From the IMG/VR virus record IMGVR_UViG_3300035670_010208, positions 1-63,037 of that record: 63,037 nucleotides of DNA. One strand, written 5' to 3'. This document shows positions 24,230 through 28,910 of the stretch, piece by piece. Below the pieces are notes generated by a model that ran no database searches, was not told the origin of the DNA, and saw nothing but the letters and a program-made list of their open reading frames with translations. How positions within the stretch are numbered: position 1 is the first letter of the stretch; the number at the start of each line of letters is the position of its first letter. Both the position numbers and the translations under genes were made by a program. This DNA is from a virus.

Positions 24230-27106
24230 ATGACCGTTAAAAAATTCAAATTTGTATCTCCAAGCGTAAAAATCGCTGAGATCGACAATTCACAACTTAC
24301 CGCAGTAGGCGGTGACATAGGAACACTTGTAATAGGCAGAGCCAACAGAGGGCCTGCAATGAAGCCAGTAACAGTATCTTCGTTTTCTGAATTTGTAGAA
24401 ACATTCGGAGAGCCAACAGCACAAACAACAAACGGAGACATCTGGAGAGACAACATCGTTGTTGGACCAACTTATGGTGTCTATGCCGCACAAGCAGCAC
24501 TAAGATCTTCAAACGTATTTACTTTCGTAAGACTCCTCGGAACAGAACACTCAGAAGCAGCAACCAATGCTGGTGAAGCAGGATGGAAAGTCGGAGCAGT
24601 AGGTACTGCACAAACTGCCGGTGGCGCTTATGGTCTATTTGTTTTCCCATCTGGTAGCGCACAGTGTACCGGAACATTAGCAGCAGTCTGGTATCTTTCA
24701 GAAGGCTCGGTAGAATTAACCGGAAACGTATATGCAAACAACGGATTAGCACCAACTACAAGTTCTGGTAGCGCTGGCATGTTTGAGTCAGACACAAATA
24801 AGCAGTTCAGAATTAGCATAAAAGATGGAACAGGCGTAGAGGTCGAGAACACAAGATTCGATCTTGATAGATCAAGCGATAAATTTGTAAGAAAAGTATT
24901 TAATACAAATCCAACACTGCTAAATAGCACAGTTTACGTTGCAGCAGACAGAAAGAAATATTTCTTGGGAGAGAGCAACGAAGATTATATCGGTTCTGCT
25001 CCAGAACTATCAGCATTAAGGGCCTCTACAAAATGGGTTGGCTGCATTCTTGCGCTAAAACATAACACAAGTTCAGAAGAACATGCCGATAGAAGAACAG
25101 AATTTACCAACTCACAGACTGGATGGTTTTTCTCACAGGATTTCAATGTTGGTGAGGCAACAGGTTCTTATCAGCCACAGAATATGACAAAACTATTTAA
25201 GCTTCATGCGCTAGATAGTGGTGAATGGAATCAGAACAATATTAAAGTTTCTATCAGAAACATTAAGACTTCTGACAATATTGAGTATAGCCCATATGGT
25301 TCGTTTGATGTCGTTATTAGAAGAATAGATGATTCTGACGATAGACCTGAAATTCTTGAGCAGTTTGTTGGATGCACACTAAATCCAGATGACGCAGACA
25401 ATTATGTCGCTTCAAGAATTGGCGATAAATATACATCATTCGATCACACCGAAAGACTAAACAAAGAAATTGGAGTGTTTGATAATAGATCTAAATATGT
25501 AAGAGTAGAAGTTTCTGACAGGGTTGCAAACAAAGCAGTAGTTCCAGAAAGTCTTCCATTTGGTGTATATGGACCAGTTGTTTATAAATCTTTTGCAATC
25601 GTATCTGGCTCAAGTGGATTTGGAAAATACAAATCACCACTTGTAGCAGAAGCTCCTTTCGTCAAAGGTAACGCTCAGATTGTAAGATCTCTCGGAACTC
25701 TAAACGCAGCAGTTTATATGATGCCAGCAGGTTCTGGAGATTTCACTGGTTCTGTAGTCTTCCCAAGACCTCTTCTCAGAGGAGATACCACAACAGGAAG
25801 TTTGGCAAATGGAAGAAATGCATATTTCGGAGCATTTACAGATACTGTTTCTGGTAAGTTTGCAAAATCAACAAGAGATACACTAAGAAGTCTAGCAGCA
25901 GGAGTAAGCTCTTTTGACGCCTCAGACGCAGCAGCAACAGAACATGCTTGGTACTTTACTCTTGATGATGTAAAATATCTTGGCTCCTCAACATCTGATG
26001 CTCAATATGTTTCAGGCTCAAGAGTTCTCGGAACTTCAATCACAGCAGGCGGAACATATCAGACTCTTCTAAATGCAGGCTTTAACAACTTTACCACTGT
26101 AATGAATGGCGGGTTTGATGGTCTAGACGTTAGAGAGATAGAGCCATTTAGAAACTCTGAACTATCAAACAAGACAGACAAAACTTCTTATGAATACAAT
26201 ACAATTAAGAGAGCAATAGATGTTTGTAGAGACAGAGAAGATGTTAGATTTAACGTAATTTCTGTTCCTGGTCTAACAAATGCAAGTTTGACAAACAGAC
26301 TTTTGACTGTATGTGAAGATAGAGGCGACGCTATTGCAATCATAGATTGCGAGAATGACTTCATTCCAAGAAGCGAAAGCTCTTCAAATCTTGAAGCAAG
26401 AACAATTTCTGTCGCAACCACAGTGTCTTCTATGAAAGATAGATCTCTTAATACCTCATATGGAGCAGCATATTCTACATGGGCAAACATAAGAGATACG
26501 CTGACAAACAACATAGTGCCTGTTCCACCAAGCGTTATTGCAATAGGAACTCTTGCATATAACGATGCTGTAGCAGCTCCATATTATGCACCAGCAGGCT
26601 TCTCAAGAGGTAACGTATCAAACGGAAGCTCTGGACTAAATGTTGTTTCGCTAGTTAAGAGACTAAGAGAGTCAGATAGAGATAAGCTTTATGACGCAAA
26701 AGTTAACTCAATTGCAAACATCTCAACTGCTGGTATAGTCGTATGGGGGCAGAAGACACTTCTTTCGACAAGTTCTGCACTAAACAGAATTAACGTAAGA
26801 AGAGCAATGATTCATATAGAAAGACTTGTAGCAGATGTTGCATATACCATAGTGTTTGATCCAAATGCTAGAGTAACTTGGAACAGATTTGTATCACAGG
26901 TTGAGCCAATTCTAAGGACAATTCTTGCAGATAATGGTATATCAGAATTTAAACTTGTCTTTGATGAGACAACAAATACCCCAGATAATATCGACAACAA
27001 TATTGCATATGGTAAAATCTTCATCAAGCCAAGCAAAGCTATAGAGTTCATCGGTCTAGACTTCTCAATTACACCACAGGGTGCAAATTTCGAAGAACTT
27101 AGCTAA
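24230..27106 (+). CDS. Tail sheath protein, gp18-like
   Basis: The 958-aa protein starts KKFKFVSPSVKIAEIDNSQL, followed by GDIGTLVIGRANRGPAMKPV and SSFSEFVETFGEP, the standard N-terminus of contractile sheath proteins. The C-terminal domain has RINVRRAMIHIERLV and FVSQVEPILRTI, typical of the conserved core that links sheath subunits. It is longer than T4 gp18 (659 aa), so it probably carries extra surface domains in the middle. It forms the contractile outer tail. It is preceded by TTGGGAG and by an AATAATTATATTAAC element 30-45 bases upstream. Confidence 0.95.
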   Translation: MTVKKFKFVSPSVKIAEIDNSQLTAVGGDIGTLVIGRANRGPAMKPVTVSSFSEFVETFGEPTAQTTNGDIWRDNIVVGPTYGVYAAQAALRSSNVFTFVRLLGTEHSEAATNAGEAGWKVGAVGTAQTAGGAYGLFVFPSGSAQCTGTLAAVWYLSEGSVELTGNVYANNGLAPTTSSGSAGMFESDTNKQFRISIKDGTGVEVENTRFDLDRSSDKFVRKVFNTNPTLLNSTVYVAADRKKYFLGESNEDYIGSAPELSALRASTKWVGCILALKHNTSSEEHADRRTEFTNSQTGWFFSQDFNVGEATGSYQPQNMTKLFKLHALDSGEWNQNNIKVSIRNIKTSDNIEYSPYGSFDVVIRRIDDSDDRPEILEQFVGCTLNPDDADNYVASRIGDKYTSFDHTERLNKEIGVFDNRSKYVRVEVSDRVANKAVVPESLPFGVYGPVVYKSFAIVSGSSGFGKYKSPLVAEAPFVKGNAQIVRSLGTLNAAVYMMPAGSGDFTGSVVFPRPLLRGDTTTGSLANGRNAYFGAFTDTVSGKFAKSTRDTLRSLAAGVSSFDASDAAATEHAWYFTLDDVKYLGSSTSDAQYVSGSRVLGTSITAGGTYQTLLNAGFNNFTTVMNGGFDGLDVREIEPFRNSELSNKTDKTSYEYNTIKRAIDVCRDREDVRFNVISVPGLTNASLTNRLLTVCEDRGDAIAIIDCENDFIPRSESSSNLEARTISVATTVSSMKDRSLNTSYGAAYSTWANIRDTLTNNIVPVPPSVIAIGTLAYNDAVAAPYYAPAGFSRGNVSNGSSGLNVVSLVKRLRESDRDKLYDAKVNSIANISTAGIVVWGQKTLLSTSSALNRINVRRAMIHIERLVADVAYTIVFDPNARVTWNRFVSQVEPILRTILADNGISEFKLVFDETTNTPDNIDNNIAYGKIFIKPSKAIEFIGLDFSITPQGANFEELS

Positions 27107-27129: not shown

Positions 27130-27642
27130 ATGGCAGGAAATTTTTGGTCATCAGTAGAATCACAGCCTAAAAGACAGTTTACTTTCGTAGTAGATATGGG
27201 AGATATTCCAAGATTTGCCGTAGCTACAGCAAAAAAACCAAGCCTAACAGTTGAAATGGCAGAAGTGTCTTGGTTGAATCATACTTTTAAATATCCAGGT
27301 AGAGTAAAATGGAACGACATATCTATGACGTTCTATGATCCTATAAATCCAGATGTAGCTAAATCTCTTTATTTGAAGTTAAAGAATTCTGGCTATTATT
27401 GGCCTGAAACACCAGGCACTTTGCAAACTGTGTCAAAAAAAGACGTAACATTAGCGATTGGAAACGTTTTATTATCTCAGCTCGATCATTCTGGAATGGT
27501 TATAGAAACTTGGACATTAAAAAATGCATGGTTCTCGGCATTGAACTTTGGAAACCTTGACTATAAATCAAATGAAGTTATTACTATAGAGATGACACTT
27601 GTTTATGATTGGGCAGAAATAAGCGGCGTAAATAATACATAA
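27130..27642 (+). CDS. Tail tube protein, gp19-like
   Basis: The 170-aa protein has NFWSSVESQPKRQFTFVVD at the start, FKYPGRVKWNDISMTFYDP in the middle and EVITIEMTLVYDWAEI at the end, the pattern of contractile-phage tube proteins. It builds the inner tube that passes through the sheath. Size and position directly after the sheath gene match T4 gp19 (163 aa). A ribosome-binding site AAAGGGGA precedes the ATG. Confidence 0.93.
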   Translation: MAGNFWSSVESQPKRQFTFVVDMGDIPRFAVATAKKPSLTVEMAEVSWLNHTFKYPGRVKWNDISMTFYDPINPDVAKSLYLKLKNSGYYWPETPGTLQTVSKKDVTLAIGNVLLSQLDHSGMVIETWTLKNAWFSALNFGNLDYKSNEVITIEMTLVYDWAEISGVNNT

Positions 27643-27664: not shown

Positions 27665-28582
27665 ATGTCAGAGAGAAATAATCAAGAAAAATTTAAAGAA
27701 ATTTTAGGGATGGCTGCAGTTAAGCCAGAAAAAAAGGTAAGACAGGCTTCCGTAGAACCTAAAGAACCAGTAGAAGTTAATTTAGATAGTTCTCATCACG
27801 ATTTTACTCTTCCTGTTTACGAAGAACTCGTAGAATTGCCATCTAAAGGATTGTGTTATAAAGAGACACATCCTTTACATGGCAAAACTCATATTGAGAT
27901 TAAACATGTATCAGGAAAAGAAGAAAAGATTCTAACAAACAAAGACTATCTTAAATCTGGTGTTGCACTATCATCGTTTGTTAAGAGTCTCATCTTAGAT
28001 GAAGACTTAAAAAAACAATCAAATTTTGATGAAATTGTTGATGCAGATAGAACTGCAATCATTCTAGCAGCACGAATATCAGCTTTCGGAAACGAATACG
28101 AAGTTGACATTACGTGTCCATCATGTTTTCATAAAGAAGAATACATGTTTGATTTGCTAGAAAATAAAAAGAATACTGGCTTTTTTGATCTTCCAGAAGA
28201 AGAAAAAGAAGGGATTGAGTACGTAGGAGGTGGTCTTTTCAAGTTTACTCTTCCCACTTCTGGCCTATCTGTGACTACTAGAATAAGCACACAGAATATG
28301 GCATCAAAGATTGAAAAAATGACGGCTGCTAATAAGCCAATAGATTTTTGTGTTATTTTTACAGAATTAGTTGAAAAAATTAACGATGTAGAGCTATCAA
28401 AAGAACAGAAATCACAGGTTCATGATGCATTAAAGCTGTCAGATATTTGGGCGTTTAAGAAAATGCTAAAGAAGATATCGCCAGTGTTTTCTCTAGAGCA
28501 AGATTGGAGATGTAGCAATTGCGAACTTGAAGACCAGATGGAGGCTCCAATCACTTCACGTTTTTTATTTCCAAAATTATAA
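27665..28582 (+). CDS. gp26-like baseplate/tail assembly protein (upstream product of a -1 frameshift pair)
   Basis: The 305-aa protein has the T4-baseplate-type pattern YEELVELPSKGLCYKETHPLHGK, followed by ILTNKDYLKSGVALSSFVKSLI. It has two CxxC pairs (CPSC near residue 155 and CSNC near 287) that may bind zinc. T4 gp26 is described as a baseplate hub component or catalyst. Here the gene sits immediately before the tape measure, the position taken by tail assembly chaperones in other phages. A T_TTT_TTA slippery heptamer lies at 28561-28567, in phase, five codons before the stop. A -1 shift would extend the protein to about 393 aa. Confidence 0.8.
   Translation: MSERNNQEKFKEILGMAAVKPEKKVRQASVEPKEPVEVNLDSSHHDFTLPVYEELVELPSKGLCYKETHPLHGKTHIEIKHVSGKEEKILTNKDYLKSGVALSSFVKSLILDEDLKKQSNFDEIVDADRTAIILAARISAFGNEYEVDITCPSCFHKEEYMFDLLENKKNTGFFDLPEEEKEGIEYVGGGLFKFTLPTSGLSVTTRISTQNMASKIEKMTAANKPIDFCVIFTELVEKINDVELSKEQKSQVHDALKLSDIWAFKKMLKKISPVFSLEQDWRCSNCELEDQMEAPITSRFLFPKL
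28561..28567 (+). promoter_or_regulatory. Candidate -1 ribosomal frameshift site T_TTT_TTA
   Basis: The heptamer T TTT TTA is read in the zero frame as ..T TTT TTA, the same slippery sequence as HIV gag-pol. The -1 frame is open from 28531 to 28845. An SD-like GGAGG at 28540-28544 lies 16 bases upstream, somewhat farther than in the bacterial dnaX site. No strong downstream structure is obvious. Confidence 0.65.
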
Positions 28583-28845
28583 GAAAATTTAATCTTGTTC
28601 CAGAAGAAAATGGATCAGAAATATCTTGGTTCTGCACATTCTTCATGAAACAAGATTGGATTCTTCCAATTAGCATCGTTGATGACTATAACGCAAATCT
28701 ACATGAAGCAATAAATGAAATGATATGCGAGCATAATTGGAGGCTCTATGAGATACTAAGTTTGCCAATTGGACTTAGAAATTTTCATAAAAATTGTATA
28801 AACAATAGAGTTCAAAGAAAAAACGATCAAATGTCCGAAAAGTGA
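28567..28845 (+). CDS. 3' extension in the -1 frame (tail assembly chaperone-like)
   Basis: This frame follows the slippery site and runs about 92 codons to 28845. It reads ISKIIRKFNLVPEENG, ISWFCTFFMKQDWILP, then a helical end with ICEHNWRLYEILSLPIGLRNF. The internal ATG at 28645 has no ribosome-binding site, which argues against independent translation. The helical E-x-x-x-L-P pattern at the end resembles the second half of gpG-T-type tail chaperones. The segment is followed by a terminator and then by the tape measure gene, the classic order for such a pair. Confidence 0.65.
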   Translation: MSKIIRKFNLVPEENGSEISWFCTFFMKQDWILPISIVDDYNANLHEAINEMICEHNWRLYEILSLPIGLRNFHKNCINNRVQRKNDQMSEK

Positions 28846-28849
28846 AAAA

Positions 28850-28876
28850 AAACACCCCAGATTTTCTGGGGTTTTT
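28850..28876 (+). terminator. Rho-independent terminator before the tape measure gene
   Basis: A 7-bp stem ACCCCAG/CTGGGGT, extendable by flanking A-T pairs, encloses a 5-base loop (ATTTT) and runs into five T's. It probably lowers transcription into the tape measure gene relative to the tube and sheath genes. Confidence 0.85.
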
Positions 28877-28910
28877 GCTATTTATATTGTAAAATTATAG
28901 GATTTACCAA

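Follow-up and report, generated by a model that had tools for sequence, protein, structure and literature searches.

A probable T4-type tail assembly chaperone locus with a predicted -1 frameshift fusion, and candidate recoding sites among its relatives

Among the described systems close to the locus studied here is phage lambda gpG/gpGT, which lies before the tape measure gene and yields a short and an extended product through a -1 shift near the 3' end; G-T frameshifting is described there as widely conserved in long-tailed phages, with T4 excepted (PMC5009743). For some T4-like phages, one short and one longer fused gene have been described instead of frameshifting, a statement drawn from Vladimirov et al. 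2022 (PMC10885494), and poly-T -1 signals in the TAC-N genes of T4-like phages have been mentioned with reference to the same work (PMC12846349). T4 gp26 and gp51 are listed as hub assembly chaperones (PMC3004832), and cyanophage gp51 is described as about 20% as long as its T4 counterpart, whose C-terminal part it resembles (PMC3037559). Because Vladimirov et al. 2022, as cited in these sources, already names T4-like tail assembly chaperones, their identity as such is not new; new here is the window as a further member carrying T_TTT_TTA and, possibly, the finding that among the best 80 of 590 loci this extension is placed in the +1 frame, at YTT_TGG.

The window, a 63-kb IMG/VR virus record with a GC content of 33%, contains at 27665-28845 what is very probably, judging from sequence, modelling and analogy, the locus for the tail assembly chaperones of a contractile-tailed phage of the T4 type, encoding a short TAC-N and a predicted -1 fusion, TAC-NC (Table 1). 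The gene order is sheath, tube, gp26-like gene, extension, hairpin and tape measure gene, and the contig of a diverged relative (L002) has ORFs of matching length in the same order. Tail assembly chaperone genes classically lie between the tail tube and tape measure genes, the slot that the gp26-like gene occupies here. Most ribosomes would stop at 28582 and release the short chaperone, while a minority would slip back one base on the heptamer, pass the zero-frame stop and produce a fusion of about 395 aa with a helical extension at its C-terminus. If lambda gpG/gpGT is a guide, the short form would coat the product of the adjacent tape measure gene, the extension would serve to bring in tail tube subunits, and both forms would leave before the tail is complete. 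The shifting itself, its frequency and the binding partners of the products are inferred. The likeness to lambda is one of layout; as a point of difference, the gp26 domain of the window carries two CxxC pairs (residues 151, 154, 283 and 286), invariant in a 40-row alignment, which likely form a zinc-binding site.

Table 1. Features of the predicted chaperone locus and its neighbours in the window.
Feature	Position	Strand	Basis or remark
Tail sheath gene	24230..27106	+	phrog_23 6.3e-62
Tail tube gene	27130..27642	+	phrog_4542 1.9e-29; PF06841 6e-9
gp26-like ORF, 305 aa, putative short tail assembly chaperone (TAC-N)	27665..28582	+	PF12322, phrog_150, predicted fold
-1 open frame	28531..28845	+	read from window sequence
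GGAGG	28540..28544	+	16 nt 5' of heptamer; probably incidental
Candidate slippery heptamer T_TTT_TTA	28561..28567	+	in phase with zero frame; identical in L002
Predicted 92-aa 3' extension reached by the shift (T-like domain in TAC-NC)	28567..28845	+	coding-type substitutions against L002; profile match to +1-clade extensions, E 5.8e-9
Zero-frame stop TAA, end of short product	28580..28582	+	read from window sequence
Internal ATG, rival start of 66-aa product	28645..28647	+	kept in L002
Terminator-like hairpin then T run	28854..28872	+	between extension and tape measure gene; conserved in L002
Tape measure gene, 880 aa	28911..31553	+	phrog_167 2.4e-9

The gp26-like ORF matches PF12322 (T4_baseplate) at 2.2e-12, with 47.6 bits against a gathering score of 24.5, and phrog_150 (baseplate hub) at 7e-11; T4 gp26 and T4 gp51 both match the same Pfam family (8.8e-64 and 3.9e-52, respectively). 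A tblastn search with the gp26-like protein gave 18 phage records at E of at most 0.01, all below 60% identity. Its AlphaFold model (pLDDT 87.3, pTM 0.80) was compared with 763 chains using VIA-align 2, and the best matches were 3fgx (Z 6.4, rmsd 3.7, 86 aligned), 2ob9, the HK97 tail assembly chaperone (Z 5.8, rmsd 6.0, 88 aligned), and 3klu, YqbN (Z 5.4, rmsd 6.3, 93 aligned). In all, 17 chains reached a Z of at least 2, and the row after these three is at 3.5; the three Z values are moderate, and values below 8 can reflect a common arrangement. All three structures are described as tail assembly chaperones (PMC9603447). Foldseek alone gave no significant match to the gp26-like model (2ob9 at E 0.73), and a PDB sequence search with the gp26-like and gp51 alignments returned nothing significant, while a viral structure library gave 55 matches at E of at most 0.001, many of them named baseplate hub proteins. 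The predicted fold of the N-terminal domain thus resembles, at moderate Z, that of chaperones with known structure such as HK97 gp13. The extension was modelled as helical, with low confidence (pLDDT 72.4, pTM 0.45). An earlier note on this DNA had suggested that a T4-type baseplate gene is here tied to the chaperone system of other phages; the comparisons favour such a link, to the lambda-type system, although it was already in print, and they support placing the T4-type "baseplate hub" genes 26 and 51 with the lambda-like tail assembly chaperones.

The same note had placed the heptamer in zero-frame phase with the gp26-like ORF, and the codon reading bears this out, the ORF ending in ...TCA CGT TTT TTA TTT CCA AAA TTA TAA. 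It had also described a -1 frame open across the junction for about 92 codons, and this frame indeed opens after TGA at 28528-28530 and closes at TGA 28843-28845, spanning 104 codons, 92 of them past the heptamer. From base composition (33% GC), the chance of 92 open codons in the -1 frame is about 0.0009. Some in-phase X_XXY_YYZ is found within the last 20 codons of 10 of the 62 window ORFs of at least 100 aa, and 4 of the 62 combine an in-phase heptamer with at least 60 open -1 codons past their own stop; therefore, the single-sequence pattern is not significant and suggestive at most, and the case beyond chance rests on conservation in relatives.

Close relatives of the gp26-like gene are present on the IMG/VR contigs L001 (protein 100% identical) and L002 (78%). 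An amino-acid-level pattern in which the slippery codons were not prescribed, scanned over the viral contigs, gave nothing beyond these two, and a scan with the extension returned the same two contigs and no further relative; a genome-contig scan with A4 gave no relative, and tblastn of the window extension in phages gave no match. In the viral-contig scan, L002 was the one diverged relative with the exact heptamer T_TTT_TTA, and the check proposed beforehand, for the same heptamer and an open -1 frame in a related genome, found both kept there. Identity between the two sequences is 76% over the 1,178 nt compared, and 27 nt are identical from 28556 with the heptamer inside (P 0.0003 at the named place, 0.07 anywhere in the gene); longer identical runs occur at 27674 (35 nt) and 28793 (34 nt). 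Over the 92-codon extension there is no indel, dN is 0.187 and dS 2.53 in the -1 frame, and 36 of the 68 differences fall at third positions (P 0.0007), a pattern indicating that the extension evolves as a protein, under purifying selection. At the sequence level, heptamer and open frame are conserved and the extension behaves as coding sequence. Such selection speaks against the idea that the extension is a decayed remnant of a T4 gp51-type fusion, broken by a frameshift mutation and left with a productless second frame, for which the in-frame fusion of T4 gp51 may be cited; the same out-of-frame layout is moreover present throughout whole branches (the best 80 of 591 and the best 80 of 590 loci described below), and we give this idea almost no credence.

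The internal ATG at 28645 requires closer attention. It had been noted to lack a ribosome-binding site, and this holds, as it is preceded by ATATCTTGGTTCTGCACATTCTTC, which contains no Shine-Dalgarno-like run; yet L002 retains this ATG, and only a few residues separate it from the conserved part of the extension, so that separate initiation is a live rival. In such a scheme the extension would be a separate 66-aa protein made by re-initiation or internal initiation at this ATG, and the heptamer would simply result from an AT-rich genome encoding a conserved Phe-Leu-Phe-Pro end. Besides the missing Shine-Dalgarno-like sequence, the 20 codons that separate the zero-frame stop from the ATG, and that only a shift product would include, count against it, as they look coding: between the window and L002 their dN is 0.389 and dS 2.28, dN exceeds dS in their other two phases, and 12 of 23 differences are at third positions, a marginal excess (P 0.048). 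After the ATG, dN is 0.136 and dS 2.64. From the heptamer up to ATG 28645, the -1 frame is free of ATG, GTG and TTG codons.

Further evidence on both readings comes from cyanophages. A scan with Sf-FS3 gp26 gave 591 metagenomic loci, and all of the best 80 have an in-phase T_TTT_TTC near the gp26 end together with a -1 extension; in L032 and L051 the contig stops before the extension does. These best 80 of 591 loci plus Sf-FS3 comprise 61 distinct 400-nt tails, every one of which reads xxT TTT TTC at the site, with AGT, TCT, GAT or AAT as the preceding codon; outside the site, these loci hold 157 distinct Phe-Phe contexts, of which 16 use TTT TTC and 5 have the full T_TTT_TTC, and kinship inflates these counts, yet the preceding codon varies while its last T stays. 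The codon choice at the cyanophage site thus goes beyond amino-acid needs, which argues against separate initiation. In favour of the latter, an ATG lies just past the zero-frame stop in 47 of these 61 tails (best 80 of 591 loci plus Sf-FS3), and the counterpart of the extension is annotated as its own gene in some public cyanophage records; in the other 14 tails a TTG overlaps the stop, and 59 of the 61 have no Shine-Dalgarno-like trinucleotide at a usable distance before the start. The annotated starts in related cyanophages are, however, variable or missing, and in several public genomes the "gp51" counterpart is annotated separately with inconsistent starts or left out. Start codons were also examined in 12 named records with the heptamer (PA5oct and MIJ3 were left out), and six have no start before the conserved part, the first one lying 39-51 nt past the stop and inside that part (ACG-2014d, S-RIM2, S-B64, metaG-MbCM1, phiAS5 and IC12). 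With these observations in hand, we regard a separately initiated extension as unlikely. A -1 fusion product, conversely, offers a reason for the truncated look of cyanophage "gp51", which on this view would represent the half of a fusion that lies out of frame.

Kyanoviridae gp26 with its short "gp51" (phrog_634) resembles the window in having an in-phase poly-T heptamer at the gp26 3' end and a -1 extension, and differs from it in the heptamer itself (T_TTT_TTC, not T_TTT_TTA), in the GGAGG found 10 nt 5' of it in 50 of the 61 distinct tails (best 80 of 591 loci plus Sf-FS3), and, for Sf-FS3, in having no tape measure gene next to the extension. The 10-nt spacing corresponds to that of dnaX, whose type of bacterial -1 cassette is stimulated by a Shine-Dalgarno-like sequence some 10 nt before the site and by a stem-loop after it. 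Neither element is conserved for the window. The GGAGG to which the earlier note had pointed is present 16 nt before the heptamer, where it encodes part of Met-Glu-Ala in the gp26-like protein, but it is not conserved, L002 carrying GGAAG, and it was rejected as a stimulator; downstream RNA structure was rejected likewise, as the predicted folds (z -3.10 in the window, -2.42 in L002) are not the same, and of the 40 pairs in the window fold L002 breaks 16.

Among named records, T_TTT_TTC in phase with a -1 extension was found in 13, namely PA5oct, MIJ3, Sf-FS3, IC12, phiAS5, VH7D, Bellamy, ACG-2014d, S-RIM2, S-B64, S-H34, AsFcp_1 and metaG-MbCM1, and T_TTT_TTG in RHph_Y68 (1 of 14 named records); the uncultured record LR756511 also has a -1 extension with heptamer. 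Six named records have a -1 extension and no in-phase heptamer (Cygsa01, PhiSH19, Dickeya RC-2014, Serratia 3M, Vibrio K369 and Klebsiella XDRKpn-1). The heptamer-less -1 loci belong to Ackermannviridae (L102, L103, L104 and L107), Vibrio K369 (L106) and Pseudomonas Cygsa01 (L014), and they need another explanation, as no in-phase heptamer is found there. They read ATT, GTT or CTT followed by TTC at the site, with TAATG, TAATT or TGATC at the overlap; the extension is unannotated in PhiSH19, 3M and XDRKpn-1.

In the environmental and isolate phages whose gp26 domain and extension are closest to those of the window, the extension lies in the opposite frame. These relatives are L003-L005 and a set (L108-L187) formed by the best 80 of 590 loci from a scan with five gp26-like proteins, including that of the window; in one of them, the Flavobacterium phage L005, the tape measure gene follows as in the window. 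They differ from it in that the extension lies in the +1/-2 frame, not -1 (at YTT_TGG in L108-L187), and is without a linker of about 33 residues. All of the best 80 of 590 loci have the +1 (equally -2) frame open past the stop, and 77 have complete extensions, the others (L116, L144 and L151) leaving the contig while still open, L151 after 18 nt. The junction in the 77 distinct tails (best 80 of 590 loci) is TTT (74) or CTT (3), then TGG, and TTT TTT precedes TGG in 72 of the 77, as against 25 of 168 Phe-Phe sites elsewhere. We take CTT_T to recall the prfB +1 site, and YTT_TGG in L108-L187 (best 80 of 590 loci) is a candidate +1 recoding site of a whole branch; a -2 shift may apply in general but is unlikely by base pairing at TTC_TTT_TGG (L116 and L156) and TTC_CTT_TGG (L141 and L144). 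The extension is also in +1 in Mel-JY01, in Flavobacterium phage immuto 3-5A, with the site TTT_CTT_TGG, and in the uncultured LR756508. A partial literature search found no paper on the +1 layout, which does not prove absence.

Both sets of sites bear on an alternative in which RNA polymerase, not the ribosome, joins the frames by slipping on the T run. Polymerase slippage needs a T run, as does the ribosomal shift. The run in the window, T6, is short for slippage to be efficient; what the -1 branches conserve is the heptamer in its phase, and in 3 of the 77 +1-clade tails (best 80 of 590 loci) the site is CTT_TGG, where the T run before the G of TGG is only 3 long. We therefore hold slippage by the polymerase to be very unlikely.

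The C-terminal piece of T4 gp51, which consists of a gp26-type domain followed by this piece, matches phrog_634 ("baseplate hub assembly catalyst") over residues 147-246. The same profile is matched by the extensions of Sf-FS3 (4.2e-26), the cyanophage-type L063 (9.8e-29), VH7D (3.5e-21), IC12 (3.9e-8), phiAS5 (3e-15) and Cygsa01 (9.1e-12); the +1-clade extensions L108 and L123 gave no match to it, and a PHROG search with the window extension gave no match. Profile comparisons connected the window extension with the +1-clade extensions (5.8e-9, probability 95.9), these with the cyanophage extensions (7.7e-6, probability 84.0), and the latter with the T4 gp51 C-terminus (3e-7, probability 93.2), while direct comparisons between window and cyanophage, window and gp51 C-terminus, and +1 clade and gp51 were not significant. 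A link of the window extension to cyanophage "gp51" and the C-terminal part of T4 gp51 is thereby suggested, in steps only. T4 resembles the window in the family of its main domain, with the C-terminal part of gp51 connected through these profile steps, and differs in having two separate genes on opposite strands, gp51 being fused in frame, and in a gp26 gene with TTC TTT, which is not slippery, and no extension behind; Stupor, like T4, pairs a fused gp51 with a gp26 that has neither heptamer nor extension.

Comparison of these loci supports the proposal of the earlier note that the gp26-like gene and its extension are a -1-shift chaperone pair before the tape measure gene. Beyond this, we moderately favour the view of one homologous chaperone locus with opposite recoding by branch: -1 on T_TTT_TTA or T_TTT_TTC in the window, cyanophages, Vibrio VH7D and PA5oct, +1 at YTT_TGG (prfB-like CTT_T or TTT_T) in the environmental group, and a second fused gene instead in T4, so that the need for two isoforms would be fixed and the means swapped repeatedly. 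With the -1 branch of the window sister to or inside the +1 group, the direction of recoding would have changed at least once. A position of the window lineage inside the +1 clade, as sister of L109, was suggested by a 52-row tree (92/96, not starred) but was absent from a 30-row tree, and a single +1 clade was not rejected (AU p 0.472). One gene family with candidate slip sites of opposite direction constitutes a directly testable set.

Downstream of the extension, the region of the terminator-like hairpin (28840-28890) has a predicted folding energy of -15.3 kcal/mol (z -3.47), and 0 of 200 shuffles were as low. At 28879, just before the tape measure gene, the window has TATTTATA, the reverse complement of the T4-late-type box TATAAATA; counts over the + strand of the whole window are 9 for TATAAATA and 5 for TATTTATA.
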